Shown here: positions 28,604 through 64,000 of the stretch, in pieces
How positions within the stretch are numbered: position 1 is the first letter of the stretch
Layout of the letters: each line of letters starts with the position of its first letter
DNA from: Flavivirga jejuensis
GTDB lineage: Bacteria > Bacteroidota > Bacteroidia > Flavobacteriales > Flavobacteriaceae
NCBI RefSeq assembly: GCF_030540765.1
Contig: NZ_JAUOEL010000001.1
Coordinates: forward strand, 992,001-1,056,000
Reading direction: 5' to 3'
Length of the DNA: 64,000 bases
Translations under genes and position numbers: made by a program
The notes under the pieces: generated by a model
The model's database searches: none
Told to the model about the DNA's origin: nothing
What the model saw: the letters and a program-made list of their open reading frames with translations, nothing else

Positions 28604-29902
28604 TTAGGCCATGTATTTTTTATATACATTTCTACCATAAAAAGCAATAAACAAAAAGCAAACTAATGGTAATATAAAAGAAAAGTTAACCTCGGATATT
28701 CCAACAATTTTTATATCATCTACATCATTTCCACCTGCATCAATAATCATACCTTGGAGTTTAGGCATTAAAGCGCCTCCTACGATGGCCATTACTAACC
28801 CCGCTGCACCAATTTTAGATTCCTCTTCATTTAATCCATTTAAAGCTATACCATATATAGTTGGGAACATGAGTGACATACTAAATGAAACTCCTACTAA
28901 ACAATAAAGTCCAAATTGACCTTCAATAAACATCGTTCCCAGGGTAAATATCATTGATAAAATGGCAAAATACATTAATAATTTGCCTGGACTAAAAAAG
29001 CGTAACATGTAAGTTCCTATAGCTCTTCCAACCATAAACAATAAGAATGCCGCAAATTGATAGTTCGCTGCAACATCACTAGTAATATCTATAGCTTCTG
29101 CATACTGATAAATGTATGTCCAGCACATAATTTGTCCACCAACATAGCAAATCTGCGATATAACACCCATAACATACTTTTTGTTTTCACCCAAAGATTT
29201 AAATGTGTCTCCAATACTAGGAATGTTACCGTCGCCTTTTGCCTGAGGCATTTTATTTATTAAAATTAATACAAATACAGATAAAATAACCAAGCCTAAA
29301 ATAACATACGGATTACGAATTACCATTAAGTCTGAAGTTCTTATCAATGCCTTTTTTGCTTCAACCAAAGAACTAAAATTCTCAATGTCGTCTGATTGTA
29401 ACCTTTTAAGAACAAATTGTTGGGCAACTAATAAGCCTAAAATTAACCCAACAGGGTTAAAAGCTTGTGCTAGATTTAAACGTTGTGTTGCTGTTTCGGG
29501 CGAGCCCATTGCTAACACATAAGGATTTGCCGTAGTTTCTAAAAAAGCTAATCCAAAGGTTAAAATATACAATGCCAGACAAAAAAACCAGAATTTCTCT
29601 GTAATGGCTGCAGGATAAAATAAAAGGGCTCCACCTGCAAATAGTGCCAGTCCGATTAGAATACCTACTTTATATGAATATTTACGAACAAAAAGAGCTG
29701 CTGGTAATGCCATACAAAAATAGCCTCCATAAAAAGCCATTTGTACCCAAGCTGCTTGTGAATTAGATAATTCTAAAACTTTTTTAAAGGCTTGTACCAT
29801 AGGATCTGTTACCGCATTGGCAAAACCCCACAATGCAAATAAAGATGTTAATAGGATAAAAGGTAATAATACTTTTTTGGATACAATAACTGGTTTACTC
29901 AT
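28604..29902 (-). CDS. FucP-like sugar:proton symporter (FHS family)
   Basis: This inner-membrane major facilitator of 432 residues has about 12 membrane segments and matches the fucose-glucose-galactose:H+ symporter branch: LFALWGFANAVTDPMVQAFKKVLELSNSQAAWVQMAFYGGYFCMALPAALFVRKYSYK, then GLAFLETTANPYVLAMGSPETATQRLNLAQAFNPVGLILG. L-fucose is a plausible substrate because two GH29 alpha-L-fucosidases are encoded in the same locus, but other monosaccharides cannot be excluded. It is the last gene of the MIOX-symporter-FucP segment, 20 bp after the symporter gene. Confidence 0.85.
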   Translation of the reverse strand: MSKPVIVSKKVLLPFILLTSLFALWGFANAVTDPMVQAFKKVLELSNSQAAWVQMAFYGGYFCMALPAALFVRKYSYKVGILIGLALFAGGALLFYPAAITEKFWFFCLALYILTFGLAFLETTANPYVLAMGSPETATQRLNLAQAFNPVGLILGLLVAQQFVLKRLQSDDIENFSSLVEAKKALIRTSDLMVIRNPYVILGLVILSVFVLILINKMPQAKGDGNIPSIGDTFKSLGENKKYVMGVISQICYVGGQIMCWTYIYQYAEAIDITSDVAANYQFAAFLLFMVGRAIGTYMLRFFSPGKLLMYFAILSMIFTLGTMFIEGQFGLYCLVGVSFSMSLMFPTIYGIALNGLNEEESKIGAAGLVMAIVGGALMPKLQGMIIDAGGNDVDDIKIVGISEVNFSFILPLVCFLFIAFYGRNVYKKYMA

Positions 29903-29922
29903 CTTTTAAATTGTTTTGTTGA

Positions 29923-31500
29923 TTAATTCCTGCCCAATAACACATATATAGTTATAGTTATAAGACATAAAAAAATAGACATTTGTTTAGTGTACTTCCA
30001 CTCTTTCATATCTACGATTTGTAAATCTTCTTGTTTAAAGTCTTCATTTGGTGGATAAAAATAGGAGACTCCAAACATTACAGCCAAATTTAATAAAAAT
30101 TCTATCCCCCATATATGTACAAAATGAACATTTACCTTAAAAACAAAGGTTGTTAGAATATAAAATGCTAATCCCACGAATAATGCGACTTTAGCGCCCA
30201 TTGCCGATATTTTACTAAGAAAAAAGCCAGCTATCATTATAGATGCAATGGGGATAAAGAAAATACCGTTTAATTGTTGTAATAATTGATATAAACCATC
30301 TGGAGCGCTTGCTACCATTGGTGCTACGAGAATTGCAAAAACTGCTAAAACCGCAGAAGTTCCCTTTCCAACTTTAACTAATTTTTTATCGCTGCATGAT
30401 TTCCCAAAATGTCTTTTATAAACATCTATGCTAAAAATAGTTGCGGCACTATTTAAAACACTATTAAAAGTACTTAATACGGCTCCCATAACAATTGCAG
30501 CAAATATGCCCACTAAACCTACAGGTAAAACTTTTTTAATAAGCTCTGGATATATCATATCTTGATTATCGTAAAGAGAATCACCATAGTAGTAAAACCC
30601 AATAACGCCTGGTAAAATTATTATGATAGGAACTAATATTTTTAAAACACCAGTAAATAATAATCCTTTTTGGGCTTCTACTAGATTTTTAGCACCTAAG
30701 GCACGTTGAATAATAGTTTGGTTCATACTCCAAAAATAGAGCTGGTTTATAATTAAACCCGTAAAAAGAACTCCAAAAGGTAGTACGGAGTCTTTAGCAC
30801 CTATAACATTAAACTTTTCTGGGCTGTGTGCATATACTTTGCTTAATCCAGTAAGAGGATTGCCATCACCTATGCTTACAAGTGCTATTAAAGGAATGGC
30901 AAGTCCTCCTATTAAGAGCCCATATCCATTAATAGTATCAGATACAGCTACTGCTTTTAATCCCCCAAATATGGCATAAACAGAGCCCAAAATTCCAATG
31001 GCTATAACAGTAATCCATAGACCTTCTTTTTTTGATATGTCTAAAACTTCTGAGATATTGAAAATACTCTCAATATTAATAGCTCCCGTATAAAGCACAA
31101 TAGGCAATAAGGTTACTATAAACGAAATCATTAAAAACAAAGCCACTAAAGTTCTTGTGGTACTATCAAAACGTTTTTCTAAATATTGAGGTATGGTAGT
31201 AAGTCCCATTTTTAAATATTTAGGAACAAAATAAATAGCAGCAACAACCAAAGCTAAAGCAGATGTGACTTCCCAAGCTATGATAATAAATCCGTTTTTA
31301 TACGAAGACCCATTCATACCAATTAAGTGTTCGGTAGAAATGTTAGTAAGTAGCATAGAGCCAGCAATTACAACGCCTGTTAAACTTCTTCCGCCAAGAA
31401 AATAACCATCTTTCGAATCTAGTTTTTCTTTTCTTAATTTATACCAGGAATAAAAAGCAACAAAAGCCGTAAAGGCAATAAAAGAAATAACAGTATACAT
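29923..31500 (-). CDS. Sodium/solute symporter (SGLT-like), candidate myo-inositol importer
   Basis: This inner-membrane protein of 525 residues belongs to the solute:sodium symporter family. It has about 14 hydrophobic segments and family motifs: YFLGGRSLTGVVIAGSMLLTNISTEHLIGMNG near the N-terminus, GGLKAVAVSDTINGYGLLIGG, and NQTIIQRALGAKNLVEAQKGLLF, which resembles bacterial SGLT-type sugar symporters. Animal SLC5 relatives include myo-inositol carriers. Because the gene immediately upstream encodes MIOX, myo-inositol is the best guess for its cargo. The MIOX gene ends 99 bp upstream. A 22-bp palindrome lies in that gap. Confidence 0.85.
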   Translation of the reverse strand: MYTVISFIAFTAFVAFYSWYKLRKEKLDSKDGYFLGGRSLTGVVIAGSMLLTNISTEHLIGMNGSSYKNGFIIIAWEVTSALALVVAAIYFVPKYLKMGLTTIPQYLEKRFDSTTRTLVALFLMISFIVTLLPIVLYTGAINIESIFNISEVLDISKKEGLWITVIAIGILGSVYAIFGGLKAVAVSDTINGYGLLIGGLAIPLIALVSIGDGNPLTGLSKVYAHSPEKFNVIGAKDSVLPFGVLFTGLIINQLYFWSMNQTIIQRALGAKNLVEAQKGLLFTGVLKILVPIIIILPGVIGFYYYGDSLYDNQDMIYPELIKKVLPVGLVGIFAAIVMGAVLSTFNSVLNSAATIFSIDVYKRHFGKSCSDKKLVKVGKGTSAVLAVFAILVAPMVASAPDGLYQLLQQLNGIFFIPIASIMIAGFFLSKISAMGAKVALFVGLAFYILTTFVFKVNVHFVHIWGIEFLLNLAVMFGVSYFYPPNEDFKQEDLQIVDMKEWKYTKQMSIFLCLITITIYVLLGRN

Positions 31501-31548
31501 TATGGTTGGTTCGTTTAGTTTAGTTAGTGTGAAAGCAAAAAAATGCCT

Positions 31549-31570
31549 TATGTAATGATATCATTACATA
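31549..31570. promoter_or_regulatory. 22-bp perfect palindrome between MIOX and symporter genes
   Basis: TATGTAATGAT at 31549-31559 is followed immediately by its exact reverse complement at 31560-31570. It sits 49 bp before the symporter start and 29 bp after the MIOX stop. A symmetrical site without a loop suggests an operator for a dimeric regulator. Because seven T follow a few bases later on the minus strand, a weak terminator or attenuator is also possible. Confidence 0.5.
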
Positions 31571-31599
31571 TTCAAAAAAAATATGTGCTATGTTTTAAT

Positions 31600-32478
31600 T
31601 TAGAAATTCAATTTTTCTGGAAAAAATTTAGCTACTAATTCTTTATAGTAAGGAAGTAATGCCTTGGCATCTGGAGGTACTGGTGCTTTTGAATATAAGT
31701 CGTAAGGATTAAATTTTTTGACCCATTCAAACATCTCAATATCCTTTTCATTCATTAAATGGGTATAATCATTTTCGCGATGTTGAGAATAAAATGAATG
31801 ATAGCGTATTATATACAGGGCAGGATCGGGTAAAAAGTCTTTAAATATTTGATATAAATATTCATCGTGACCCCAGCTCATTTTTACGTTATCCAATCCG
31901 CAGTTTGGTTTGTAAATCCCGTATTTAGTATTAAATCTTTCATCTGTATAATCTGGGTTTTCTTTGAAAAACTCTGAATACACAATCTTATCTGAAAACG
32001 CACAGCCAACAGGAAATGTATCTCCTACTACGGCCCATTGAGGTTCTCCAAACAAACATAAAATTTTACCTAAATCATGTATAAAGCCAGTGATCACAAA
32101 CCAATCTGGATGGCCATCTGCTCTAATCGCTTCTGAAGTTTGTAATAAGTGCTGTAATTGGTCTAAATCTATATCTGGGTCGCTATCATCAACTAGAGTA
32201 TTTAAGAAATCTACTGCTTCCCAAATAGACATCTCCTTTTTGTCAAACTTCAGGTATTCTTCTTCTTTGGAACATACAAAATCATAAGTTTGATAGGTGT
32301 GGTTTAATCTGTAAAATTCCTTAACGGTATCTAAACGTTCGGAATCTATATAATTACGAAATGCTTCTTTCTCTTTTTTTGTTTCAGAAGCATCTGGATA
32401 TCTTACTAATAAATCATCTTCCCAATCATCAACACTTTCCATAGGGTTGTCAGAATTAATATTCAATGGCTTTTTCAT
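31600..32478 (-). CDS. Inositol oxygenase (MIOX)
   Basis: This cytoplasmic di-iron oxygenase converts myo-inositol and O2 to D-glucuronate. With the start at 32478 it has 292 residues, close to the animal enzyme (about 285). Expected iron and substrate ligands are present: the His of [12 protein letters not shown], His-Asp of GFIHDLGK, His of [11 protein letters not shown], His of [11 protein letters not shown] and Asp of [19 protein letters not shown] is another family signature. An upstream extension of the frame to 32577 adds a hydrophobic stretch that MIOX does not have and would run through the 21-bp-spaced repeats, so I reject it. The enzyme feeds glucuronate into uronate catabolism. 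It is encoded beside the candidate inositol symporter and the HTCS. Confidence 0.93.
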
Positions 32479-32542
32479 ATACTTAAAATTATAATAATTA
32501 AATAAGGAAACAACTAAATTATAATTTAAGGGATATATCAAA

Positions 32543-32573
32543 ATGGACAAATACACCAAAATTATGGACAAAT
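32543..32573 (-). promoter_or_regulatory. 21-bp-spaced direct repeat upstream of MIOX (candidate HTCS site)
   Basis: On the minus strand ATTTGTCCAT occurs twice (32573-32564 and 32552-32543), start to start 21 bp, with TTTTGG in the spacer. It ends 64 bp before the MIOX start codon. Matching repeats precede the susC gene (58849-58819) and the DUF1080 gene (58955-58985). Two-turn direct repeats suit the paired AraC-type domains of HTCS regulators. Confidence 0.7.
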
Positions 32574-32597
32574 TCAATATGAAAAATAGTATTTATA

Positions 32598-35500
32598 CTA
32601 TTTGATTAGCTTACTAGGAGGGAAGCCAAACTGTTTTTTAAAGCATCTACTAAAATATAAAGGGTCGTTAAAACCTATTAAATCAGTGACTTCTGATACA
32701 TTATACTTTTTTGTTTTTAGAAGTTGAGCTGATTTTTTTAATCTTATTGTTCTAATAAATTCATTAGGAGATAAATCGGTTAGTTCTTTAATTTTTCGAT
32801 ATAATTTGGAAGAACTCACCCCTAGTTCTTTACATAGAAAGGAGGTAGTTAAATCAACTTTATTTAGATTAGTTTCAATTAAATCTAATGCTTTTTTCAT
32901 TAATTCTTCATCTATAGGTGAATGGGTTAATAAACCTATCTCACTTTCAACTTCGTTAGAAAATGTAGCCTTTAACTCTAATCTTGTTTTAATGATATTA
33001 GCAATCATAGCTTCAAGCAGTGATGGGTCGAAAGGTTTTACCAAATAACCATCTGCGCCAACGTTAAAGCCTTTCACTTTATCTTCACTTTCAGAAAGTG
33101 CAGTTAATAAAACTACTGGGATATGGCTTATAAATTCGTCGTTTTTCAACTCAGAACAAAATTCAAGCCCGTCCATAACAGGCATCATCACATCTGCTAC
33201 ACACAAAATAGGTTTAACCTGTCGGCAGACTTGAAGTCCTTTTTTACCATTATCGGCCTCGTAAACTTTGTAATAATCAGATAAATAATCTATCAAATAT
33301 TTTCTAAGTTCTATATTATCTTCAACAACTAGTATCTTTTCTTTAATTTGAGTATTATTAATAATTTTTTTGTTTGGGATATTTGGTATAATTTCTGTTT
33401 CTGTTTCATTTGTAACAAATTCAAAAACTTCTTCTTCGCTATAGTATTTACGGTTTATAGGGATTTCTACAATAAAGACACTACCTTTATTACGTTTACT
33501 CTGTACTTTTATAGTGCCTTTATGAAGTTTTACTAAAGATTTTACTAGCGACAATCCAATTCCAGAACCTGTATTGTTTTCTTTACTGTTTGTGGCTTGA
33601 TAGAATCTTGTGAAAATCTTTTCTTGACTTTTTGACGGAATACCAATACCATCATCGCTTACTTCAATTATTAAGGAGTCTTTCTTTTCTTCCTTTAGTC
33701 TTACAAATAAATCTACATGACCATATTTATTGGTGAATTTTATAGCATTTGATAATAGATTGTATAATATTTTATCGTATTTGTCTCTGTCTACCCAACC
33801 AAAAAGCGTATCATTTTCAGTATTAAAGTTGAGTTGAATGTGTTTATTAAATGCTAATTCTTTAAAAGAATCAAATGTGTTCTGAGTATATAAAAGTATA
33901 TCGGTTTTTGAAACTTTAAGTTTTAATTCTCCTGTTTGTGCTTTTCTAAAGTCCAGTACCTGGTTTACTAAATTTAATAGTCTACTGGCGTTTTGATGAA
34001 TGAGGTTGTACCTGCTTTTTTGGTAATCGGTACCATTAGTTTTAGATTCTTCCAGCAATTGTTTTGCTGGGCCTAAAATAAGTGTTAATGGTGTTCTTAA
34101 TTCGTGCGAAATATTGGTGAAAAAGCGAAGTTTTTCATTATTTAATTTAACATCCCGCTCTCTATTTACTTTTTCTGTAACGAGTTCTTGCTTTAATCGT
34201 ATTCTATTTCTAATATCTCTTCTGATAAAATAAAGTATTATAAACGTAGATAATAGAAATATAAGAAGGGCTTGATATGTTAGCCAAAAAGGAGGTTCAA
34301 TTTTTATTTTATATGAAACAACATCACTCCAATGCCCATCACTATTACTAGATTTTATATTAAAAATATAATCTCCAGGAAACAGGTTTGTATATTGAAC
34401 AGTTCTAGAGTTACTATTGGCAAGTATCCAGTCTTTATCGAAACCTTCCAGCATGTATTCAAACTTATTTAGTTTTTCGTTTGCATAAGAAGGGGTTGAA
34501 AATTGTAATGAAAAATTTCTGTTTTTATAATTAAGCTGAATGTCTTTTAATACGTTTAAATCTTTTTCTAATGGGACTTGATTATTAACTTTATTACCAG
34601 GAAACACCTCTTTATTCTGAACCTTGAATTCTGTAATTGCAGGTAAAGGTGACCATTTATTTTCGTTAATAGTGTATGGTGAAAAATAAATAATACCATT
34701 TTTACCACCTAAATAAATATTGGAGTTATCAAAATTATAAAACCCGCTTGAGCTAAATACATCCAATCTATTACCACTATTTACATGATATATATTAAAA
34801 TCCTTAAGGCTTGTTTTTAATCTTGCTACACTGTTATTATTTATATTTAGCCACAAATCTCCATTGGAATCTGTAACCATATCTGTAATCCATTTACCAG
34901 CAATTTCCTTTGGTTCTTTTACTGGTTCAAACGAATCTTTATAACTATTATAGGTGCTTAAGCCAGTACGTGTCGCTGCCCAGATTCCCCCGTATTTACC
35001 TAATATAATATCACTTACATTATCATGTGGAAGCCCTATCTGCCCGGTGAGATTATTATTATATGATTTGATTTCGCCAGTTTTAATAGCATATTTTACA
35101 ACACCACTTTCAGTAGCAAACCAAACGTTTTTATAGGAATCTACTTCAATGGCATTTATTTCAAAACCAGGAAGCAAGGTGCCTAATGATTTATTTAATG
35201 TTAAGTTTTTTGTGTTTAAAACGACCACACCCTCACCAAAAGACCCCAACATAAGGGTGTCTTTTTCTATTTTCTTAAAAGCAAATACCGGCGATTGTTC
35301 AAAACCTACATCTATTACTTTTGATGTGTTTTTTCCATAATTATAAACCAATATTTTTCCGTTCCAGAGCCCACAATAGAAAATGTCTCCATCATCAGAA
35401 TAAATACTTGCTATATCTTTTTGATTGTTATACAAGGGAACAAAATTGGCGTCTTTTGAAATAAAAAGACCGTTATGTCTTGTCGCAACAATAATTCTAT

Positions 35501-36632
35501 CATCTATTGTTTTTGAAAACCCTCTAATACGTGGTGCTTGATTCCCTATATATTTTGAAATATCTTTATTAAGGTTGAATTGATTTTCATAAGGATCATA
35601 TTTATCTAAGCCATCTTCTGTTCCAATCCAAAGCACTCCAGAAGCATCAAAATACAATGCCGAAACCAAGTTGTCTATTAAAGATGTATCGTCTGAAAGC
35701 ACTGCATAATGCCATTGGAAATCGCCATTAATTATATCTTCCAATTGATTACAAACCAGTAGACCTCCTAAAGTTCCAACCCAATATTTTCCATCAGGAG
35801 CTTGAGCTACAGACAAAAAATAAGGGCCTAAACTATCTCTCGTATCGTCATCTTCAATATAAAGATTTGTAAAGGTATTTGTTGCTTTGTTAAGTTTATA
35901 AAGTCCTTCTCGTGTTCCTATAAATATATCCGATTTTGAATCTTCGTATATAAAGTTGATATACGGGTTCTTTTCATTCGAATTAGGAATAGATAACATG
36001 TAACTAACCAATTGAGACACATCCCCAGTGGTATTTAAAGTTATTTTTGCTACAGATGCTGTTCCATAACTACCAATCCAGATATTCCCTTTTCTATCTT
36101 CAAAAATTGCTTTTACATAATTGAAACCTTTAATTTCAATTTTTTCAAATCGGTTTTCGTCTACAAAAAACACATAGACACCTTTTGTTTTAGTGCCTAC
36201 CCAAACCCGTTTAAATTTATCTACATAAACAGAACGAATTTCTTCATCTGGCAAACTATTAGGGTTATTTGCCTCAGGTAAAAATGTTGTGAATTTTTGG
36301 GTGTCTGTTTTAAAAAGAGTCAGTCCTTTTCTTGTACCAATCCAGAGATTATTTGAGTCTTCATCAAGATGTAGTGCTGTGATATCGTCATTATTAATTT
36401 TGTTATCGCCAGGTGATGAGCTTAAATGCGTTTTAAATTGATACCCATCAAAACGGTTAAGACCAGAAAATGTTCCCAGCCATAAAAACCCATGTTTATC
36501 TTGAACAATATGACGTACAGAGTTATGAGACAATCCACTATTGTCATTATAATGTTCGAATTTTATATTCTGAGAATTAGAACTAACAAAAGAAAAAATA
36601 CCCAAACATATTATAATAAAATGGTGTCTCAT
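32598..36632 (-). CDS. Hybrid two-component system regulator (HTCS)
   Basis: This single protein of 1344 residues senses a periplasmic glycan signal and activates transcription. Order of parts: signal peptide (about 1-20), two-bladed Reg_prop beta-propeller sensor (about 22-690, many W-G/I-GT repeats such as HGFLWLGTFSGLNRFDGYQF), Y_Y_Y domain (about 700-790), one membrane segment (about 800-825), histidine kinase HisKA with FFTNISHELRTPLTLILGP, HATPase with DDGIGIP and GSGIGLSL, a receiver domain (ILVVEDN, phospho-acceptor Asp in CVADVMMPVMDG, Lys in YLVKPFD) and a C-terminal AraC-type helix-turn-helix (about 1245-1344). All signalling residues look intact. It is encoded inside the gene group it probably controls, and its likely sites are the 21-bp-spaced repeats. 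Confidence 0.95.
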   Translation of the reverse strand: MRHHFIIICLGIFSFVSSNSQNIKFEHYNDNSGLSHNSVRHIVQDKHGFLWLGTFSGLNRFDGYQFKTHLSSSPGDNKINNDDITALHLDEDSNNLWIGTRKGLTLFKTDTQKFTTFLPEANNPNSLPDEEIRSVYVDKFKRVWVGTKTKGVYVFFVDENRFEKIEIKGFNYVKAIFEDRKGNIWIGSYGTASVAKITLNTTGDVSQLVSYMLSIPNSNEKNPYINFIYEDSKSDIFIGTREGLYKLNKATNTFTNLYIEDDDTRDSLGPYFLSVAQAPDGKYWVGTLGGLLVCNQLEDIINGDFQWHYAVLSDDTSLIDNLVSALYFDASGVLWIGTEDGLDKYDPYENQFNLNKDISKYIGNQAPRIRGFSKTIDDRIIVATRHNGLFISKDANFVPLYNNQKDIASIYSDDGDIFYCGLWNGKILVYNYGKNTSKVIDVGFEQSPVFAFKKIEKDTLMLGSFGEGVVVLNTKNLTLNKSLGTLLPGFEINAIEVDSYKNVWFATESGVVKYAIKTGEIKSYNNNLTGQIGLPHDNVSDIILGKYGGIWAATRTGLSTYNSYKDSFEPVKEPKEIAGKWITDMVTDSNGDLWLNINNNSVARLKTSLKDFNIYHVNSGNRLDVFSSSGFYNFDNSNIYLGGKNGIIYFSPYTINENKWSPLPAITEFKVQNKEVFPGNKVNNQVPLEKDLNVLKDIQLNYKNRNFSLQFSTPSYANEKLNKFEYMLEGFDKDWILANSNSRTVQYTNLFPGDYIFNIKSSNSDGHWSDVVSYKIKIEPPFWLTYQALLIFLLSTFIILYFIRRDIRNRIRLKQELVTEKVNRERDVKLNNEKLRFFTNISHELRTPLTLILGPAKQLLEESKTNGTDYQKSRYNLIHQNASRLLNLVNQVLDFRKAQTGELKLKVSKTDILLYTQNTFDSFKELAFNKHIQLNFNTENDTLFGWVDRDKYDKILYNLLSNAIKFTNKYGHVDLFVRLKEEKKDSLIIEVSDDGIGIPSKSQEKIFTRFYQATNSKENNTGSGIGLSLVKSLVKLHKGTIKVQSKRNKGSVFIVEIPINRKYYSEEEVFEFVTNETETEIIPNIPNKKIINNTQIKEKILVVEDNIELRKYLIDYLSDYYKVYEADNGKKGLQVCRQVKPILCVADVMMPVMDGLEFCSELKNDEFISHIPVVLLTALSESEDKVKGFNVGADGYLVKPFDPSLLEAMIANIIKTRLELKATFSNEVESEIGLLTHSPIDEELMKKALDLIETNLNKVDLTTSFLCKELGVSSSKLYRKIKELTDLSPNEFIRTIRLKKSAQLLKTKKYNVSEVTDLIGFNDPLYFSRCFKKQFGFPPSKLIK

Positions 36633-36664: not shown

Positions 36665-38503
36665 TTATGGATTTATTCGTTCTATTGTACTTGTTTTTAA
36701 GTTGATTTTGAAATGATTTGAAGGGTATCCGTTTGCTGTCTTCTTCAATATACTTTGCCACAATGCAAATGCTTTATTTCCAGATTTTGATAACTGATCA
36801 CAAACAAATTGATAATGCTCCAATCGTTTTAACCCAATATCGGCTAGAGCTAACTCATCTGCACTTCTTAATCTGTAAAAATCAAAAATCATATCGAAAC
36901 CTGTCCAGCTTTCAAAATCGTTTAAAGACCATTTTTTTGATGCTAATTGTTGATTGATTACTTGTTTATTATCCTGAGCCATCAATAACAAATCTTTACC
37001 TGAAGATTTTAAAACAGCATCCGTAAATGTTTTAGGCCAATCTTTTGGTATAAACCGAAGCCGCGTTAATTCTTTTAAATGCCATTGTGTAAATTCCCTA
37101 TAGTTTTTGGTTTTAAGAATGTCTTTATTCCAAATATTAATCTTCTTTATACTTTCTAAATGTGTATGCTCTTGCTCGTAAAGGGAAAACAGTTTATTGA
37201 AATTATGAACAGAGTCTGTAACCACAGTTTCTATATCAAATTCAGAATCTGAATGTATGGTTAATATTTTATAGGCTGGTATATATGCTGCTAATGATGG
37301 TGTTTGTATATTGAATAATGTTCCTTTTGCAGTCGTCCGAACACCTGTATCGTTTATATGCATATGTCCTCCAAAATGTATTTGAATACCTGCATTTGCA
37401 AATGTTTTTGCAACATCTTCGTTCGGGACACGATGTAATTGCATCTTATTCGAACCAAAAAACGTCTTCATTTCTGAAGAGGCATCGTCATTAAAATCGA
37501 CCATAGGATAATGGCTAAAAGCAATTAATGTTTTACCATGTGCTTTAGCGTTTTTTGATACCCTTTCAACCCAATCTACGAGATGGTTTTTATGAGATAA
37601 CACATTATTAAAACCAATACTTGCTCCTGTATAATCATCTTGACTGGATTCTAAATCTAATGTTTTTTCCTTTGGAATATATACATTAGCATCTATTGCC
37701 AAAAGCCAAACATCTTTTATAGGTTCCACTAAATAGCTTGCGTCTGGAAGAAAAGCAGTATTATGTTGAATGGGATATACTCTTTTTTCTAAAGGAGATG
37801 CTTCACTTGCTTTTTTAAAATTATAGTTTGTATAATTATAGTTTGAAAATGGGGTTTCCCAATATAGGTAGTCTTGTTTTGGATAAAACCCAAAATCGGA
37901 CATTTCATTTAAAATCTCTTGATAGCCCCAGTTTTTTATTCCAGATGTTATGATTGGTTTTAATTGATCGTCTTCTACTATTTTTAATTTACTTTCTGAA
38001 CTTGCGATAATTTGTTCTTTACCGCCTTCACCCAAAAAGTCTTTTTTTATGGCTTCTCTGGAAAAAGGTCTAACAGGATCATGGTTACCTGTTGTGGCAA
38101 AAAACGAGATCCCGTATTTCTCTGAATAGTTGTCTAGAATACGTCTTAAGCCTTTAACATGTATTGGTTGGCCATCGTCACTAAAATCTCCTGGAAGGAC
38201 TACTATTTTAATACCTCTTTTAGAAATATCATCCAAAGCGGCTAAAAAAGCAAAGTAATTTTCATTGAAAATTCTGGTGGACTTTAATTGTGACCCCATG
38301 GTTCTTATATTGACAAACTCATCTGATATTGGATTTTTTATGCCTTTATAGTTGGCATCTTTAAATTCTGCATAAATATCTTGAAAATGAACATCTGCCA
38401 AAAATGCCATTTGCACATTTTTAGGTTGTAAATTTTGTTCTGTTTTGCATTTTGTAAGTGCAAACAATAAAAAAATGAATATTAAATTTTTTAAAACTTG
38501 CAT
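36665..38503 (-). CDS. Exported calcineurin-type metallophosphoesterase
   Basis: This 612-residue protein has an N-terminal signal peptide with Cys 19. The residue before that Cys is Lys, so lipidation is uncertain. The full dinuclear metal-binding set is visible: DVH (LADVHFQD), GDFSDDG, GNHDP, FSHYP and GGHMH. The C-terminal 170 residues are alpha-helical and of unknown role. It should remove phosphate from an exported substrate. It lies directly downstream of GH115 and the PI-PLC, so an inositol phosphate or phosphorylated oligosaccharide is a reasonable candidate, but general phosphatases look the same. The HTCS gene follows after 32 bp. Confidence 0.85.
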   Translation of the reverse strand: MQVLKNLIFIFLLFALTKCKTEQNLQPKNVQMAFLADVHFQDIYAEFKDANYKGIKNPISDEFVNIRTMGSQLKSTRIFNENYFAFLAALDDISKRGIKIVVLPGDFSDDGQPIHVKGLRRILDNYSEKYGISFFATTGNHDPVRPFSREAIKKDFLGEGGKEQIIASSESKLKIVEDDQLKPIITSGIKNWGYQEILNEMSDFGFYPKQDYLYWETPFSNYNYTNYNFKKASEASPLEKRVYPIQHNTAFLPDASYLVEPIKDVWLLAIDANVYIPKEKTLDLESSQDDYTGASIGFNNVLSHKNHLVDWVERVSKNAKAHGKTLIAFSHYPMVDFNDDASSEMKTFFGSNKMQLHRVPNEDVAKTFANAGIQIHFGGHMHINDTGVRTTAKGTLFNIQTPSLAAYIPAYKILTIHSDSEFDIETVVTDSVHNFNKLFSLYEQEHTHLESIKKINIWNKDILKTKNYREFTQWHLKELTRLRFIPKDWPKTFTDAVLKSSGKDLLLMAQDNKQVINQQLASKKWSLNDFESWTGFDMIFDFYRLRSADELALADIGLKRLEHYQFVCDQLSKSGNKAFALWQSILKKTANGYPSNHFKINLKTSTIERINP

Positions 38504-38523
38504 TAAAATAGAGTTTTTAGAAA

Positions 38524-55816: not shown

Positions 55817-58759
55817 TTAAAAAGAAAGATCAAGACCTAAAATAATGGTTCTAGGACGAGGATACCCTCCAAAGTCAACGCCATAAACATTGCCGCCTCC
55901 TGTATTGATCTCAGGATCATATCCTGAATAGTCTGTTATCACAAAAAGGTTTTGACCTGTAAGATATATTCTTAAACTGTCAAGAAAAGTGTCGTTTTTA
56001 ACATTCCAACCCAATGTGGCATTGTTCAATCTTAAGAATGAACCGTCTTCAATATACCTAGATGAAGAAATTTGTGCAGACGATGGGTTTTCATTAAGAT
56101 CAAGGTATTCTCTAAAAATGTTATTCCCGTTTTGCGCCAAAGACGCAGCACTTGAATAAGCCCTTGCCGTATTATTAAAAATGTCCACGCCACTTACACC
56201 ATTAAAACCTAATGCTAAATCAAAGTTTTTGTATGATGCGTTAATATTAAATCCATAAATTGTATTAGGTAATGCGTCTCCTACTATTTCAGCATCTGAT
56301 AGTATTTCTTCGCCATTGCTATCGAATCCTTCAAATTTACGTAAAAAGAACGATCCTGCAGATTCTCCATTGGTAAAAATGCTACTTGTTTCCCCTGATG
56401 TACTAGGACCAAAAATTTCTCCAACAAACACATCTGTAGCAAGTCCTTTAATGTTATTATCCAAAAGTGATATGTTACCTGAAAAATCAAGAGAAAAATT
56501 ATCCGTTCTAATAGCATTTACATTTAATGCAAATTCAAAACCTTGATTAATAATTTCAGCATCTGAGTTTGTGTAAGTCTCTTCAGTTAAAGCAGGAACT
56601 GATGCAGAAACTTCCAAGAAGAGATCGGTAGTGTTTTTATGGAAATAGTCAAATGTACCGCTAATTTTACCATTCAATATCCCCCAATCTATTCCTACAT
56701 TATACTGTTCTGTAACTTCCCATTTTAAATCTGGGTTAGCTGTTCGTGTTGTATTCACACCATTAACAACCGTTGTCCCATTAAATGTAAAACTATTATC
56801 AAAGTCAGTATCTAAAGAGGGCTGCGCAGCTCCTACTGGGATGTTTTGGTTACCTGTTTGCCCCCAGCCTAGTCTTAATTTTAAATTGGAAAATACATCA
56901 GAATTTTCAAGAAATGCTTCTTCATTTATTTTCCACCCTAATCCAACTGCAGGGAAATAACCATATTTATTGTTATCACCAAATACTGAAGACCCATCTG
57001 CTCTAAGTGATGCCGTTATCAAGTATTTATCTAAGAAATTAGCATTAAACCTTCCAAAGAACGATTGTAATTTTCTTTCACTATTACCTGATTCGATAGT
57101 AGTAGCACCCTGAGCAACTCCTAAATTAAAAATAGGATCTATATCTCTGATTCCACCAAAATCAGCTCGTTCAATCCTTAAACTTTTATTATTGAAAGTC
57201 TGATATGAATGACCCGCAAGAACATCAAAATTCCATTTATCATAACTCTTTGTATATGTTAGGAAATTTTCTATTAACAGATTAGAATCTTCTCTTGAAT
57301 CCTGAACAATCTGATCTTCGGTTTGGTCTCCTCCATCATCAGAATTATTGAACAGTCTGAAAAAACGATCTGTATCTGAATTCTCGTAACCAAAGTTAAT
57401 CTTATAATCTAAGCCATCAATAATAGTATACGTCGTAGTAAAGTTAGCCAAAACTCTTTTGCTTTCGGCTCTGTCACGATATAAATCAAAAAATGACACA
57501 GGATTGTCTGTAGCACCCGTTCTTGTAGTTACCTCACCATCATCATCAAAAACTGCAGAGGTTGGGTTGGCTCTAAGCGCTCCAATAATGACACTTCCTA
57601 AAGCCTGGCTTTCGTCTGTAAGATTAGCTGCCGTAAGGTTAGCACGGAATTTTAATCGGTCATCCAATAGTGAAGTACCTACATTTAATCTTCCAGTAAC
57701 ACTTTCATGCCCTGTAGTTTTCACTACACCTTCTTGATCTAGATAACTCAATGATACATTATATGTTGTTGTACCAGCTCCGCCAGAAAACCCTAAATTG
57801 TAATTATTTACTTGGGCTGTTTGATAAATCTCATCTTGCCAGTCGGTATTAGCATTTGCTGCATCAATATAAGATTCGGGAGTTCTAGGAGTATCTAACA
57901 AAGGACCCAAACGCGAAGTTTGCTCTCTATATTCGCTAGCACTTAGTAGATCAATATCTCTAGCTACTGTAGAAAACCCTGTTGATGTACTGAAGGTAAC
58001 CTTTGTTTTACCTACTTTTCCTTTTTTGGTTTTTATTAGCACAACTCCATTGGATGCTCTCGTACCATAAATTGCTGTAGCAGAAGCATCTTTTAAAACA
58101 GTAATGCTCTCTATATCTTTTGGATTCAAAAAATTTAAAGGACTTTTTGATCTTGTAGTTCCTCCAATACCATCAAGACCATTTGAACCAGAAGATCCTC
58201 CATCTAAAGGAACACCATCAACCACAAACAGTGGGTTACTAGAAGTCGTTATTGAACTCACGCCACGAATATTGATATCTACAGCACTTCCTGGTTCTCC
58301 AGAACCTGTAGTTACATTAACACCAGCCATTTTACCTTGTAATAATTGACCAGGTGAATTCGAAATACCTTTGTTGAAATCTTTGGTGCCAATCACTTTA
58401 ACAGAACCCGTTAAATCTTTTGATTTTACACCTCCATAACCAACTAAGACGATTTCCTCAAGTTGTGCAGTGTCTTCTTGTAGTTTTACATTTAATGATG
58501 ATTGTCTAGTGTAAGTAACTTCCATAGTTAGATAGCCTAGATAAGAAAACACTAAGATGTCTCCGTTACTAGCATTAATACTATACTTGCCATCAAAATC
58601 TGTGGCAGTTCCTGTAACAGTCCCCTTAATAAGGACATTAACCCCTGCTATAGGGATGTTCTGTTCGTCGGTTACCTTTCCAGTCACCTTACTTTGTGCC
58701 CATGAAGTAAATGAAAAGCCTACAAGGCAGACCATTATTAAAAGTTTCAGTTTTTTCAT
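55817..58759 (-). CDS. SusC-family TonB-dependent transporter of the glycan/inositol locus
   Basis: This 980-residue outer-membrane transporter heads the 30-kb left-going gene group. It has a signal peptide (about 1-21, TSWAQ), a carboxypeptidase-regulatory-like domain (about 22-100), the motif EEIVLVGYG near 103-111, a plug with DASATAIYGTRASNGVVLI, and a barrel ending DLSF. The import substrate is inferred from the neighbours to be a fucose-, mannose- and glucuronate-containing oligosaccharide. Sixty bp before the start is a 21-bp-spaced direct repeat (58819-58849), the likely binding site of the HTCS. Confidence 0.95.
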   Translation of the reverse strand: MKKLKLLIMVCLVGFSFTSWAQSKVTGKVTDEQNIPIAGVNVLIKGTVTGTATDFDGKYSINASNGDILVFSYLGYLTMEVTYTRQSSLNVKLQEDTAQLEEIVLVGYGGVKSKDLTGSVKVIGTKDFNKGISNSPGQLLQGKMAGVNVTTGSGEPGSAVDINIRGVSSITTSSNPLFVVDGVPLDGGSSGSNGLDGIGGTTRSKSPLNFLNPKDIESITVLKDASATAIYGTRASNGVVLIKTKKGKVGKTKVTFSTSTGFSTVARDIDLLSASEYREQTSRLGPLLDTPRTPESYIDAANANTDWQDEIYQTAQVNNYNLGFSGGAGTTTYNVSLSYLDQEGVVKTTGHESVTGRLNVGTSLLDDRLKFRANLTAANLTDESQALGSVIIGALRANPTSAVFDDDGEVTTRTGATDNPVSFFDLYRDRAESKRVLANFTTTYTIIDGLDYKINFGYENSDTDRFFRLFNNSDDGGDQTEDQIVQDSREDSNLLIENFLTYTKSYDKWNFDVLAGHSYQTFNNKSLRIERADFGGIRDIDPIFNLGVAQGATTIESGNSERKLQSFFGRFNANFLDKYLITASLRADGSSVFGDNNKYGYFPAVGLGWKINEEAFLENSDVFSNLKLRLGWGQTGNQNIPVGAAQPSLDTDFDNSFTFNGTTVVNGVNTTRTANPDLKWEVTEQYNVGIDWGILNGKISGTFDYFHKNTTDLFLEVSASVPALTEETYTNSDAEIINQGFEFALNVNAIRTDNFSLDFSGNISLLDNNIKGLATDVFVGEIFGPSTSGETSSIFTNGESAGSFFLRKFEGFDSNGEEILSDAEIVGDALPNTIYGFNINASYKNFDLALGFNGVSGVDIFNNTARAYSSAASLAQNGNNIFREYLDLNENPSSAQISSSRYIEDGSFLRLNNATLGWNVKNDTFLDSLRIYLTGQNLFVITDYSGYDPEINTGGGNVYGVDFGGYPRPRTIILGLDLSF

Positions 58760-58818
58760 ATTCTATAATGTTTAGTTATTTTTGAATAGCTAATTTAATT
58801 TTAAAGATTTGATGGTAA

Positions 58819-58849: not shown

Positions 58850-58954
58850 TGTTTAATCTTGAGGTAGTTATTAACATATTTTATTGGTTTTGGAAAGGAA
58901 TATTTTAATTGTTAGCTTTGAGAACTTAACAAAGCCTGTTTTTTAATATGACCA

Positions 58955-58985
58955 ATTTGTACATGCTAATGGGTAAAATGTCCAT
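58955..58985 (+). promoter_or_regulatory. 21-bp-spaced direct repeat upstream of the DUF1080 gene (candidate HTCS site)
   Basis: On the + strand ATTTGTACAT (58955-58964) and AAATGTCCAT (58976-58985) lie 21 bp apart, with TGG in the spacer, ending 56 bp before the start codon at 59042. It is the least perfect of the three repeats, but spacing and distance to the start agree. Confidence 0.55.
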
Positions 58986-59041
58986 CTAGAAGCCGTGCAT
59001 ATAAACTAAATTTAAAATTCTTTAAACTAATATTTTTAATA

Positions 59042-60430
59042 ATGAAAAAAATGCTCTTTCACAGTAAAATGGTTGCCCTTTTTACAATACTTATCTCACT
59101 TAGTTGCTCTCAAAAACCTAAAGATGATACGCCATGGATAGATTTATTTGACGGTCAAACTTTAAACGGTTGGACACAAAAAGGCGGTAATGCGACATAT
59201 GAAGTTCGCAATGGAACGATTGTTGGCACAACAGTACACAATACGCCAAATACTTTTCTAACTACAGAAAAATTATACGGGGATTTTATTTTAGAATTGG
59301 AATATAAGGTAGATTCTACCATGAATTCTGGTATACAAATACGCAGTAATAGCTTTCCGCATTATAGAGATGGACGTGTGCATGGCTATCAAGTTGAAAT
59401 AGATCCTTCCGAACGTGCTTGGAGCGGTGGTATTTATGATGAGTCTAGACGTGGTTGGCTTAATACTTTAGAAAATAACCCCGAAGCTCAAAAAGCTTTT
59501 AAACAAAATGATTGGAATCATTATCGTATTGAAGCTATTGGAGATACCTTAAAAACTTGGGTTAATGGTGTTGCTGCATCCTATTTAATTGATGAAAAAA
59601 CAGCTAGCGGATTTATTTGTTTGCAAGTGCATAGTATTAAAGCAGACAAGCAAGCGGGAACAGAAATTATATGGAAAAATATCAAAATAGTAACTGATAG
59701 TGTTTCTAAATATTCAACAAAATCAGCACTTCAACCAATTGTCACAAAAAACAAGTTAACTATAGATGAGACCAAAAAAGGTTGGAAATTGCTATGGGAT
59801 GGTGAAACAACAAATGGATGGCGAGGAGCTAAACTAGAAGGTTTTCCTGAAAGTGGATGGAAAATCGAAAATGGTGAATTAATAGTATTAGCTTCTGGTG
59901 GTGCTGAATCCACAGCTGGGGGTGATATTGTTACTGAAGCTTTGTATGGCGATTTTGAATTATCAGTAGACTTTAAGTTAACCCCTGGTGCTAACAGTGG
60001 GATAAAGTATTATGTTGATACCAATATTAATAAAGGTAAAGGTTCTTCTATTGGTTTAGAATACCAAATTTTAGATGACGATTTACATCCAGACGCAAAA
60101 CTTGGAAATCATGAAGGAAGTAGAACGGTTAGTTCGCTTTACGACTTGATTCAAGCCGATATAAATAAGCCGATAAAGCCCATTGGAGAATGGAATACCG
60201 CTTACATTATTTCTAAAAATAATCATGTAGAACACTGGTTAAATGGTACGAAAGTTCTGGAATACGAAAGAAAAAGTGACGATTATCGTAAACTAGTATC
60301 TGAAAGTAAATACGTAAAATGGCCAAATTTTGGTGAGCTAGATAAAGGTCAGATTCTACTTCAGGATCATGGTGACTTAGTAGCTTTCAAAAATGTAAAA
60401 ATTCACCCTATAAACAATATTAAAGAATAA
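59042..60430 (+). CDS. Lipoprotein with two DUF1080 (3-keto-disaccharide hydrolase) domains
   Basis: This 462-residue lipoprotein (lipobox SLSC, near residue 23) carries two DUF1080 jelly-roll domains. The first (about 33-215) has WIDLFDGQTLNGWTQKGG, LYGDFILELEYKVDSTMNSGIQIRS and HGYQVEIDP. The second (about 243-457) has KLLWDGETTNGWRGAK, LYGDFELSVDFKLTPGANSGIKYY and IGLEYQILDDD. Family members cleave glycosides after the sugar has been oxidised at C3, working with Gfo/Idh/MocA oxidoreductases. Two such oxidoreductases are encoded directly downstream (5 bp and 40 bp gaps). It probably acts in the periplasm or at the surface. Confidence 0.87.
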   Translation: MKKMLFHSKMVALFTILISLSCSQKPKDDTPWIDLFDGQTLNGWTQKGGNATYEVRNGTIVGTTVHNTPNTFLTTEKLYGDFILELEYKVDSTMNSGIQIRSNSFPHYRDGRVHGYQVEIDPSERAWSGGIYDESRRGWLNTLENNPEAQKAFKQNDWNHYRIEAIGDTLKTWVNGVAASYLIDEKTASGFICLQVHSIKADKQAGTEIIWKNIKIVTDSVSKYSTKSALQPIVTKNKLTIDETKKGWKLLWDGETTNGWRGAKLEGFPESGWKIENGELIVLASGGAESTAGGDIVTEALYGDFELSVDFKLTPGANSGIKYYVDTNINKGKGSSIGLEYQILDDDLHPDAKLGNHEGSRTVSSLYDLIQADINKPIKPIGEWNTAYIISKNNHVEHWLNGTKVLEYERKSDDYRKLVSESKYVKWPNFGELDKGQILLQDHGDLVAFKNVKIHPINNIKE

Positions 60431-60435
60431 CGATT

Positions 60436-61785: not shown

Positions 61786-61825
61786 TTTTTGTATCAATAT
61801 ACTCCAAATCAGTAAAAACAAGTAA

Positions 61826-63007
61826 ATGAAAAGAAGAGAGTTCGTAATTAAAAGCACTTTAGCTTCGGCTGCAGTAGCAACAACAGCTGTAGCCATGGGA
61901 AGTGCTTTTAATTTCAAAAATGCCAATGAAACTTTAAATATTGGAATTATTGGTACTGGAGATAGAGGGAAAGGCCTTATTCCAAATATTAATGGAATTA
62001 ATAATTTTAATGTTATTGCTTGTTGCGATGTGCTTCCATTTCGTTTGCAAGAAGGCTTAAAAAAAGTCAATGGCAAAGCAAAAGGATATAGTGATTATCG
62101 TAAATTATTAGATAATAAAGACATTGATGCTATATTGGTTTCTACGCCGTTCAATACACATTCTCAAATTGCCATAGATGCCTTAGATGCTGGCAAACAT
62201 GTGTATTGTGAAAAAACAATGGCAAAAGGATACGATGGTATTCAGAATTTGATTAAAAAAGTAGAAGACTCTAAAACTATTTTTCAAACAGGGCATCAAT
62301 ACCATAGTTCTAGATTATACACCCATGTGGTAGATTTGATTAAAAAAGGAAAAATAGGAAAAGTAGTTGCTTTTGAATGCCAATGGAACCGTCATGGAGA
62401 TTGGAGGCGTCCTGTTCCGCAGGCAGATCTAGAAAAAATTATCAACTGGCGTATGTATCGTGAATACTCTGGTGGATTACTAGCTGAGCTTTGTTCGCAT
62501 CAGATAGATTTTGCAAATTGGGTTTTAGATGAAACGCCTAGCCAGGTTATGGGAACTGGTGGGGTAGATTATTGGAAAGATGGTAGAGAAACTTATGATA
62601 ATATTCATCTTATTTATAATTACCCAAGCGGTGTTAAAGCAACGTTTACATGCTTAACGAGTAATGCTAAAGATGGGTATAAAATAAAAGTAATGGGGGA
62701 TAAAGGCACTATTATTTTAGATTATGCCAAAGCTTGGTTTTTCCCAGAAGGACTAGGAAAAAAGGAGTTAGGCGAATTAGATGGTGTTTCTGGAGCAACA
62801 GTGAAATGGGATAAAGACTTAGGTATTCCTATAAATATTGAACATAAAGAACCTAGTGAGCAAGCATTGATCGATTTTAAAGATAACATTCTTTTAAACA
62901 AAGAACCGATATCAAATATTACTACTGGTGCTAATGCGGCTATTTGTATTCAAATGGGATTAGATGCTATGTATGGTAATAAAATTATTACAAGACCAGT
63001 GTTGTAA
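61826..63007 (+). CDS. Tat-exported Gfo/Idh/MocA-family oxidoreductase (second)
   Basis: This 393-residue protein starts with the twin-arginine motif KRREFVIKSTLASAAVATTAVA. The NAD-binding motif is IGIIGTGDRGKGL. The family EKP motif reads EKT (VYCEKTMAKGYDG), keeping the Lys. ELCSHQIDFANWVL carries the His and Asp of the substrate site. It is only distantly similar to the first oxidoreductase. Two such enzymes with one DUF1080 protein suggest oxidation and later re-reduction, or two different sugar positions. The gap to the upstream gene is 40 bp. Confidence 0.88.
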   Translation: MKRREFVIKSTLASAAVATTAVAMGSAFNFKNANETLNIGIIGTGDRGKGLIPNINGINNFNVIACCDVLPFRLQEGLKKVNGKAKGYSDYRKLLDNKDIDAILVSTPFNTHSQIAIDALDAGKHVYCEKTMAKGYDGIQNLIKKVEDSKTIFQTGHQYHSSRLYTHVVDLIKKGKIGKVVAFECQWNRHGDWRRPVPQADLEKIINWRMYREYSGGLLAELCSHQIDFANWVLDETPSQVMGTGGVDYWKDGRETYDNIHLIYNYPSGVKATFTCLTSNAKDGYKIKVMGDKGTIILDYAKAWFFPEGLGKKELGELDGVSGATVKWDKDLGIPINIEHKEPSEQALIDFKDNILLNKEPISNITTGANAAICIQMGLDAMYGNKIITRPVL

Positions 63008-63129
63008 TAATTGAATTCGTGTGAATTTGTGTAAAAAGTTTTTAGAAGCTGAAAACGAAATGCACTAAAGTACATAGTTTTAACTACATTTGAGACCAAT
63101 AAAATAAGTAAAATAATAAACGGATTTAT

Positions 63130-64000
63130 ATGAAAAAGCAATTGTATTTATTGTTTCTATTAGCATGTGTATTAAACATAAATGCTCAAAATAATATAGA
63201 ACAAGTAGCATTAAAAACGTCTTTAGTAAAACCTCAAAAGATTACAAAAATAAAAGAGGGGCATTATCTCATAGACTTTGGTAGAGCTTTTTTTGGCACG
63301 GTGCAGATAAAAGCAAAAAACACACAAAATGATCCTATTAGTTTTCATTTAGGAGAGAAATTAGAAAATCCTAATAAGATAGATAGAAATCCAGGTGGAA
63401 CCATTAGGTACCGAAATGCTACTGTAGACACTTTAACTGAAGGGCAATTAACCACTGTAAAACTTGTTCCTTATAAAAGAAACACTACAGGAGCAGCTAT
63501 ATTGATGCCAGATAATATAGGTGCGATTATTCCTTTTAGATATTGCGAAATTGAAAACCTGAAAATTCCTATTGACGCTATTGAAATTTGGCAAAAAGCA
63601 ATTCATTATAAATTTAATGACGATGCGAGTTATTTTTCATCTTCAAATGCCATATTAGATTCTATTTGGAATTTATGTAAGCACACTATAAAAGCAACTA
63701 GTTTTACTGGTTATTATGTAGATGGGGATAGAGAGCGTATACCTTATGAGGCAGATGCTTATATTAATCAGTTAAGTCATTATAGTGTAGATAATGAGTA
63801 CACCATGGCTAGAAGAACTAATGACTATTTTATGAATAACCCTACTTGGCCAACAGAATGGTTATTACATACTGTACTAATGTTTCATCTAGATTATATG
63901 TACACAGGCGATTTAGAACCGCTTAAAAAACATTACGAAAATCTTAAGTTAAAAACACTTATGGAATTAGAGCGTGCCGATGGTTTAATAAGTTCTAAAT
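63130..64000 (+). CDS. GH78-like alpha-L-rhamnosidase, N-terminal part (cut by window end)
   Basis: The frame starts at 63130 with a signal peptide (about 1-20, LNINAQ) and is open to the window end (290 residues seen). An N-terminal beta domain with LIDFGRAFFGTVQIKA and HLGEKLEN is followed by the start of an (alpha/alpha)6 barrel: AILDSIWNLCKHTIKATSFTGYYVDGDRERIPYEADAYINQLSHYSV. The DGDRER-PYEAD stretch corresponds to the acidic active-site region of GH78 rhamnosidases (commonly DCPQRDERLGWTGD). The Gly/Trp-rich part is altered, so substrate may vary. It begins 122 bp after the second oxidoreductase and is probably in the same unit. Confidence 0.78.
   Translation, partial: MKKQLYLLFLLACVLNINAQNNIEQVALKTSLVKPQKITKIKEGHYLIDFGRAFFGTVQIKAKNTQNDPISFHLGEKLENPNKIDRNPGGTIRYRNATVDTLTEGQLTTVKLVPYKRNTTGAAILMPDNIGAIIPFRYCEIENLKIPIDAIEIWQKAIHYKFNDDASYFSSSNAILDSIWNLCKHTIKATSFTGYYVDGDRERIPYEADAYINQLSHYSVDNEYTMARRTNDYFMNNPTWPTEWLLHTVLMFHLDYMYTGDLEPLKKHYENLKLKTLMELERADGLISSK

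Follow-up and report, generated by a model that had tools for sequence, protein, structure and literature searches.

Polysaccharide utilization loci (PULs) of Bacteroidota that are controlled by a hybrid two-component system regulator (HTCS) bring together a SusC/SusD pair, that regulator, co-directional glycosidases and sugar importers. We analysed a 64,000-nt window of a contig of Flavivirga jejuensis (genome size 6.0 Mb) and describe here a locus of 15 genes that shares all of these parts. Judged from its enzyme families, its neighbourhood and its relatives, this is likely to be a locus of the SusCD/HTCS kind that serves the use of inositol-phosphate glycolipids, namely those of the glycosyl inositol phosphorylceramide (GIPC) type.

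According to excerpts of four papers (PMC6151786, PMC8099651, PMC11496612 and PMC12201980), plant GIPCs have cores of the type GlcNAc(a1-4)GlcA(a1-2)Ins-1-P-Cer, or the corresponding version with Man, and carry Ara, Gal, Man and Fuc as outer sugars; the seagrass Zostera noltii is listed as a producer in the part of PMC12201980 available. The Botrytis enzyme BcGIPC-PLC1, as presented in an excerpt of PMC11496612, cuts plant GIPC between phosphate and ceramide and yields Man-GlcA-inositol-P. Inositol-lipid synthesis in gut Bacteroidetes is treated in PMC9246714, to go by a part of that paper.

The 15 genes all lie on the minus strand and form one co-directional run of approximately 30 kb, with intergenic gaps of at most 221 bp, 11 of the 14 being shorter than 50 bp. 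In order from 58759 to 28604, they are as follows.

55817..58759, minus: SusC/RagA TonB-linked outer-membrane transporter (TIGR04056, 764 bits; Pfam)
54150..55781, minus: SusD lipoprotein, glycan capture (PF07980)
51862..53928, minus: divergent GH115-like protein of uncertain activity, possibly a lipoprotein (PF15979, 68 bits; cut-off 27)
49553..51865, minus: GH92 alpha-mannosidase family, lipoprotein (PF07971, 444 bits)
48229..49536, minus: GH29 alpha-L-fucosidase family (PF01120, 241 bits)
46772..48184, minus: GH29 alpha-L-fucosidase family (PF01120, 288 bits)
44209..46767, minus: GH3 glycosidase with PA14 insert (PF01915, PF00933, PF07691; 205 bits given for GH3)
42558..44192, minus: two-domain esterase, BD-FAE (PF20434, 70 bits) and SASA acetylesterase (PF03629, 182 bits)
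41483..42556, minus: predicted Ca-dependent phosphatidylinositol phospholipase C (PI-PLC, type PI-PLC-C1), lipoprotein (PF16670)
38524..41499, minus: GH115 alpha-glucuronidase, predicted periplasmic (PF15979, 438 bits; C-terminal domain, 159 bits)
36665..38503, minus: metallophosphoesterase (MPE), calcineurin-like, possible lipoprotein (PF00149, 40 bits; cut-off 21.5)
32598..36632, minus: HTCS with sensor propeller, kinase, receiver and AraC-type helix-turn-helix (Reg_prop, Y_Y_Y, HisKA, HATPase_c, Response_reg, HTH_18)
31600..32478, minus: myo-inositol oxygenase (MIOX), start set at ATG 32478 (PF05153, 374 bits)
29923..31500, minus: SSF sodium:solute symporter, probable inositol transporter (NF007790, 725 bits; SSF, 181 bits)
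28604..29902, minus: FucP L-fucose:H+ symporter (TIGR00885, 513 bits; cut-off 280)

Adjacent SusC and SusD with carbohydrate-active enzymes and an HTCS are both present, and the run is a PUL by layout. Each enzyme named in an earlier note on this DNA (PI-PLC, MPE, GH115 and its divergent relative, GH92, two GH29, GH3, MIOX, FucP and the divergent neighbours described below) scores above its Pfam or TIGR cut-off. That gene list was right, but it left out SusC/SusD and the HTCS, and the "esterases" in it are the SASA and BD-FAE domains of a single protein. Inspection by eye of the N-termini in the window reveals lipoboxes in PI-PLC, GH92 and SusD, off-consensus lipoboxes in MPE and the GH115-like protein, and ordinary signal peptides in GH115, GH29, GH3 and the esterase; MIOX has no signal peptide. 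Our argument uses these N-termini, as the lipoprotein calls in relatives rest on a coarse pattern by which part of the lipoboxes are overlooked.

The PI-PLC is matched by its profile over residues 1–327 of 329 (425 bits), and its predicted model (pLDDT 93.6) has the Ca-dependent PI-PLCs of Pseudomonas (5fyr/5fyo) and Streptomyces antibioticus (3h4w) as the closest solved folds, with Foldseek values of 9.5e-15 to 5fyr and 4.0e-13 to 3h4w. It has both the full-length profile match and the fold of a Ca-dependent PI-PLC, which is its predicted activity. Residues H35, E80, D82 and H126 are invariant in 54 of 54 sequences; we name them as catalytic on the basis of invariance and motif, since the profile matches to solved enzymes span the chain only partly.

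For the MPE (model pLDDT 91.4), the nearest folds are Lmo2642, SMPDL3A/B, acid sphingomyelinase, GpdQ and Rv0805, and the metal motifs DxH, GD, GNHD, H and GHxH are invariant in 39 of 39 sequences. Because of these motifs and folds we read it as a phosphodiesterase or phosphatase, and predict that it hydrolyses inositol (cyclic) phosphate. It occurs in 60 of 80 PI-PLC loci, mostly adjoining the PI-PLC or one gene off, and its position thus fits the PI-PLC product as a substrate.

Textbook PI-PLCs employ the 2-OH group of inositol, and a Streptomyces member of the PF16670 family presumably uses the 6-OH group. Since O-2 of the inositol carries GlcA in plant GIPC, an enzyme of the 2-OH type would have to await GH115, and a scheme in which the PI-PLC acts first is chemically easy only if the window enzyme needs no inositol 2-OH. 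If it uses the 6-OH group, a surface PI-PLC acting first and a periplasmic GH115 acting later would also agree with the signals of the two proteins.

The genome has two GH115-family genes, both inside the locus. In the full GH115, the equivalents of BoAgu115A residues D206, R328, D332, E375 and H422, whose importance was shown by mutation according to an excerpt of PMC3879575, are kept in 20 of 20 sequences (R328 and D332 were verified in the alignment; D206, E375 and H422 were counted by eye). The position of Asp-424 of BoAgu115A is occupied by Ser, the same as in BtGH115A. The GH115-like protein is 22% identical to the full GH115; the D206 and H422 equivalents are present in 14 of 14 sequences, and E375 is replaced by Asp. 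Its R328/D332 loop is gapped in a MAFFT alignment, whereas a profile alignment places an invariant R-P-R...W-D-W there, and as the two disagree on this key loop, alpha-glucuronidase activity of the protein is uncertain. The structures nearest to GH92 are named alpha-1,2-mannosidases and are too distant to decide its linkage.

MIOX aligns over its full length with mouse MIOX (2huo; E 1.4e-88, 276 residues), and what we take to be the iron ligands of MIOX are all present in the alignment. It is the only MIOX match of the genome, and the only PI-PLC match lies in the same region. MIOX converts inositol into D-glucuronate and GH115 frees glucuronate, so both products would feed UxaC, whose sole match in the genome lies beside the locus, in the 20 kb right of the window, together with a LacI regulator and the following genes.

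L045:2243-9687, right of window: SDR, UxuA (438 bits), UxaC (664 bits), TRAP transporter (DctP, DctM) and PfkB kinase, candidate glucuronate route

Conversion of inositol into glucuronate by MIOX, as the earlier note had it, thus fits, and UxaC/UxuA extend the route beyond the window. In another Flavivirga (G005), the genes on this flank agree in order and are of equal or near-equal size, as read from gene sizes alone.

The SSF symporter is probably an inositol transporter. In our own grouping, MIOX of the window type scores at least 360 bits and that of the other type at most 327 bits. Five genomes whose MIOX is of the other type (G060, G012, G022, G042 and G085) have next to it a symporter 64–65% identical to that of the window, and no PI-PLC, GH115, GH92, MPE or HTCS match was found in the 20 kb read there; our reading of the window SSF follows from this pairing of a like symporter with MIOX. 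An Algibacter carries an altronate dehydratase and a mannitol-dehydrogenase-family protein beside MIOX-SSF. L044 (G017:C3:76500-96499) has PI-PLC, SSF and MIOX near one another, but several of the open frames there are short and MIOX is interrupted by two TGA stops, indicating either sequence errors or a copy in decay.

A scan of named genomes gave at least 446 relatives of the PI-PLC, and the best 80 loci were analysed (loci have L numbers and genomes G numbers). GH115 or the GH115-like gene lies within 10 kb of the PI-PLC in 38 of them. These 38, chosen by GH115/GH115-like alone, supply the counts that bear weight: MPE, GH92 and an HTCS of at least 45% identity are each found in 37 (the misses are L082, L072 and L076), as against 23, 7 and 6, respectively, of the remaining 42. 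We call a locus core if it has GH115/GH115-like within 10 kb or GH92 with HTCS, a rule to which GH92 and HTCS themselves belong; it adds five of the 42 (L052, L053, L069, L090 and L124), which have GH92, HTCS and MPE and make up a large part of those lower numbers, giving 43 of 80. GH115 is present in 32 of the core loci, GH115-like in 15 and GH92 in 42 (31 of these with at least 63% identity, the other 11 distant), while the 37 non-core loci have MPE in 18, GH92 in 2 and GH115 in none. In a quickly built tree of the PI-PLCs, the core label changes 4 times as compared with 27.0 in shuffles (0 of 500 shuffles as low), near copies in the tree making such labels cluster. L083, whose contig is cut just upstream of PI-PLC and which carries MPE, HTCS, MIOX, SSF and GH29, is treated as non-core in tree and counts.

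MIOX was searched for in 42 genomes (from the 43 core loci and L083, minus L062 and L070) and found in 41, the sole miss being L076, a Prolixibacteraceae metagenome-assembled genome (MAG). It lies inside the fetched locus in 20 and, by coordinates, 2.8–12.3 kb past its edge in 18 further ones; the same contig was confirmed for 6 of these 18 and for L086 (G054). The MIOX of L054 is on another contig and adjoins a SusCD, that of L066 is on another contig and that of L072 is not near; the latter two loci stop at contig ends. MIOX, PI-PLC-C1 and GH115 co-occur in other Bacteroidota, the point that the earlier note had named for checking. The pairing of MIOX and PI-PLC goes beyond chance: in an even sample of 397 Flavobacteriaceae genomes, PI-PLC-C1 occurs in 28, window-type MIOX in 31 and both in 20. 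A PI-PLC lies no more than 30 kb from 16 of the 31 window-type MIOX genes, compared with 1 of 33 MIOX genes of the other type. Four genomes with window-type MIOX (G005, G013, G054 and G071) keep together PI-PLC, MPE, HTCS, GH92, MIOX and SSF as well as GH115, GH115-like or both, and vary in SusCD, GH29, GH3 and esterase. A similar gene order around PI-PLC is retained across genera. On these comparisons, the set is inherited together.

SusCD, PI-PLC and MPE also occur without glycosidases in L097, L099, L100, L104, L111 and others (Algoriphagus, Zobellia and kin), perhaps a simpler, older unit for scavenging phosphoinositides. A simple SusCD-PI-PLC-MPE unit appears to have been extended later with glycosidases, regulator and MIOX.

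The accessory glycosidases are exchanged between loci. Seven Flavobacterium loci (L054, L063, L066, L070, L071, L073 and L074) carry a GH89 alpha-N-acetylglucosaminidase, identified in L054 via Pfam and 87–94% identical to it in the other six, and have only a distant GH92 (25–26% identity) in the stretch read. Several of these strains presumably come from soil, roots or fresh water, and F. glycines, a GH89 genome, has a NagB/PIG-L protein next to MIOX-SSF. A GH125 alpha-mannosidase occurs in 10 loci of Algibacter and kin (L085 via Pfam, the others 74–98% identical). Among the non-core loci, the MAG L118 has a GH89 at 36% identity to that of L054, and GH36 is present in two others, one from Labilibaculum and one from Carboxylicivirga, with a GH20 in the Carboxylicivirga locus as well. 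The swap of outer-sugar enzymes between GH89 (alpha-GlcNAc) and GH125 (alpha-Man) matches the GlcNAc and Man versions of the GIPC head group.

Judged by family only, one locus thus has enzymes for each piece of the head group (Man or GlcNAc, GlcA, the phosphodiester, the phosphate and the inositol), and the series GH89 or GH92, GH115, phospholipase C, phosphoesterase and MIOX matches the list expected for a plant GIPC head. The genes, their order, their conservation and the exchange of accessory enzymes are observed; from these we infer the substrate, the order of steps and the specificity of each enzyme. The PI-PLC lipoprotein would sever the head group from ceramide at the cell surface, and SusCD would take in the inositol-phosphate glycan. 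Outer sugars would then be stripped by GH29, GH3 and GH92 (or, in a number of relatives, GH89), acetyl groups by the esterase, and periplasmic GH115 would free the GlcA attached to inositol, leaving the MPE to hydrolyse inositol (cyclic) phosphate. Free inositol would be imported by the SSF symporter and fucose by FucP. Cytosolic MIOX would open the inositol ring to give D-glucuronate, which, with the GlcA freed by GH115, would enter the UxaC-UxuA-kinase route just right of the window.

A number of observations weigh against this reading. No ceramide-processing gene was seen in the locus; a genome search for alkaline ceramidase also gave no match, but the control was unmatched as well, making that search uninformative. 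GIPC heads "from algae to monocots" are called largely unknown in the part of PMC8099651 available, and thus do not settle what a marine strain would feed on. Five of the 43 core loci are without GH115/GH115-like, and in three of six genomes tested whose loci lack GH115 none was found genome-wide; GlcA-inositol therefore cannot be the target of every version. Some MIOX is present in 20 of 32 non-core PI-PLC genomes (7 of the window type). In the even sample, 15 of the 31 window-type MIOX genes have no PI-PLC within 30 kb, which shows that MIOX also serves other inositol sources. The SusCD pairs differ among loci, and targets may therefore differ too. GH28, found in 21 of 80 loci, is outside the GIPC structures seen, GH43 (7 loci including L135) and GH16 (L075) are not accounted for by them, and DUF4861 recurs unexplained in relatives. 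A conserved protein of ~597 residues lies in or beside 8 loci (e.g., L053:6580-8373, L131:15800-17593 and L135:4910-6703); two copies scanned gave no Pfam match, and it is perhaps a new kind of glycosidase. Finally, the closest solved structure to the full GH115 is BtGH115A, which we take to act on arabinogalactan. As a side observation, the GH43 at L080:20005-20985 matches the N-terminal domain of plant GINT1 (glucosamine-IPC transferase 1) with 32.5 bits (cut-off 27), probably through a shared propeller fold.

The core idea of the earlier note, a GIPC-like inositol-phosphate-glycan system, nevertheless fits the comparative evidence; its substrate is an inferred one, and GH115 is not in every relative. 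The best of the alternatives, which we regard as unlikely, is a composite locus, with PI-PLC, MPE, MIOX and SSF for recovering phosphate and inositol out of ordinary phosphatidylinositol and with GH115, GH92, GH29, GH3 and the esterase for an unrelated glycan that contains fucose and GlcA. Since SusCD, PI-PLC and MPE without glycosidases are common in other PI-PLC loci (MPE in 18 of 37), the pair can work alone, and MIOX and SSF also occur without the remaining set. However, the genes form a single run with PI-PLC set between esterase and GH115 (gaps of 1 and -17 bp), the order is similar across genera, and MPE, GH92 and a related HTCS each accompany GH115 or GH115-like in 37 of 38 loci.

Slightly less probable again is a mannose-first inositol phospholipid, such as fungal mannosyl-inositol-P-ceramide or a lipid resembling phosphatidylinositol mannosides, with GH115 acting on another branch. 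Fungal GIPCs are mostly mannose according to the excerpt of PMC6151786, GH92 is near-universal in the core loci (42 of 43, by the identities given above) with GH125 in 10, and three of the five core loci without GH115/GH115-like lack it genome-wide. This alternative has to be set against GH115 or GH115-like in 38 of the 43 core loci, GH89 in seven, and GH29 and FucP in the window.

We consider it very improbable that the locus targets arabinogalactan proteins, GH115 and GH29 trimming side chains and PI-PLC cutting the glycosylphosphatidylinositol (GPI) anchor: BtGH115A, the inositol phosphate and mannose of GPI anchors, and GH16 and GH43 in relatives would suit it, but Pfam scans turned up no galactanase or arabinofuranosidase family in the window locus, and GH89 and MIOX are left unexplained. 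Fucoidan and xylan were rejected as substrates, as neither a sulfatase nor a xylanase family is among the 30 window proteins scanned, in agreement with the earlier note (GH3 is assigned by family only).

The divergent genes beside the locus are as follows.

59042..60430, plus: 3-keto-disaccharide hydrolase (DUF1080; PF06439), near the locus also in G005, G013 and L081
60436..61785, plus: Gfo/Idh/MocA oxidoreductase (PF01408), 96% in G005 and 83% in G013
61826..63007, plus: Gfo/Idh/MocA oxidoreductase (PF01408)
63130..63999, plus: GH78-like gene, 5' part (PF05592, PF17389), running past the window end, 3' part at L045:111-968

This group (59042-63999) goes along with the locus in G005 and, in part, in three further cases (G013, L132 and L136), and possibly forms a side route for oxidative (3-keto) deglycosylation. 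To the left, at 5602-26977, lies a separate alginate-type locus with a lyase of the chondroitinase B family (PL6-type) with DUF4957, heparinase II/III-type proteins (one with an Alginate_lyase domain) and Alginate_lyase2, together with SusCD, a GntR/FCD regulator and an MFS transporter.

Digestion of a lipid head group, with the inositol ring as food, is a task seldom tied to PUL-type clusters. If GIPC-type lipids are indeed the target, the reach of PULs would go past polysaccharides to membrane lipids, and roots, seagrass and algae would feed Bacteroidota via their plasma membranes. The locus would also be an enzyme toolbox with which the poorly known sugar structures of GIPC could be read, and named strains carrying it make the proposal directly testable; Flavivirga aquimarina KCTC 52353 has the same locus and Flavobacterium glycines the version with GH89. 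For a broader proposal the chances seem to us about even: an unnamed, widespread class of PULs may eat glycosphingolipid heads by means of a PI-PLC-C1 that cuts O-2-glycosylated lipids, exchangeable cassettes and MIOX. The cassettes (GH92/GH125 for mannose, GH89 for GlcNAc and GH29 for fucose) would then fit the local plant or algal GIPC, MIOX would convert even the cyclitol ring to uronate that supports growth, and Bacteroidota would thereby recycle the carbon, phosphate and inositol of a sphingolipid that is among the most abundant on Earth.

Among the matches listed in a search of open-licence papers without preprints, none dealt with a PUL of bacteria directed at GIPC, which does not show absence in print; we have not seen the substrate class and enzyme mix of this PUL among those matches. 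BcGIPC-PLC1 performs the same step as predicted for the window PI-PLC, but it is annotated, in the part of the source available, as a sphingomyelinase and not PI-PLC-C1, and it stands without a utilization locus; acid sphingomyelinase is among the fold matches of the window MPE and not of the PI-PLC. The Pseudomonas and Streptomyces antibioticus PI-PLCs share family PF16670 and fold with the window enzyme, which is only 15–16% identical to them and is a lipoprotein within a PUL. The alpha-glucuronidases BoAgu115A and BtGH115A share active-site residues with the full GH115, whose predicted leaving group is inositol and whose Ser (Asp-424 in BoAgu115A) is that of BtGH115A. Known MIOX-based inositol catabolism likewise has a full-length MIOX beside an SSF symporter, whereas in the window MIOX is joined to a glycolipid-type PUL and lies near UxaC/UxuA. 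Compared with the HTCS-controlled PULs of Bacteroidota, the locus holds in addition a phospholipase C, a phosphoesterase and an inositol oxygenase, and its predicted target is the head of a membrane lipid rather than a polysaccharide.

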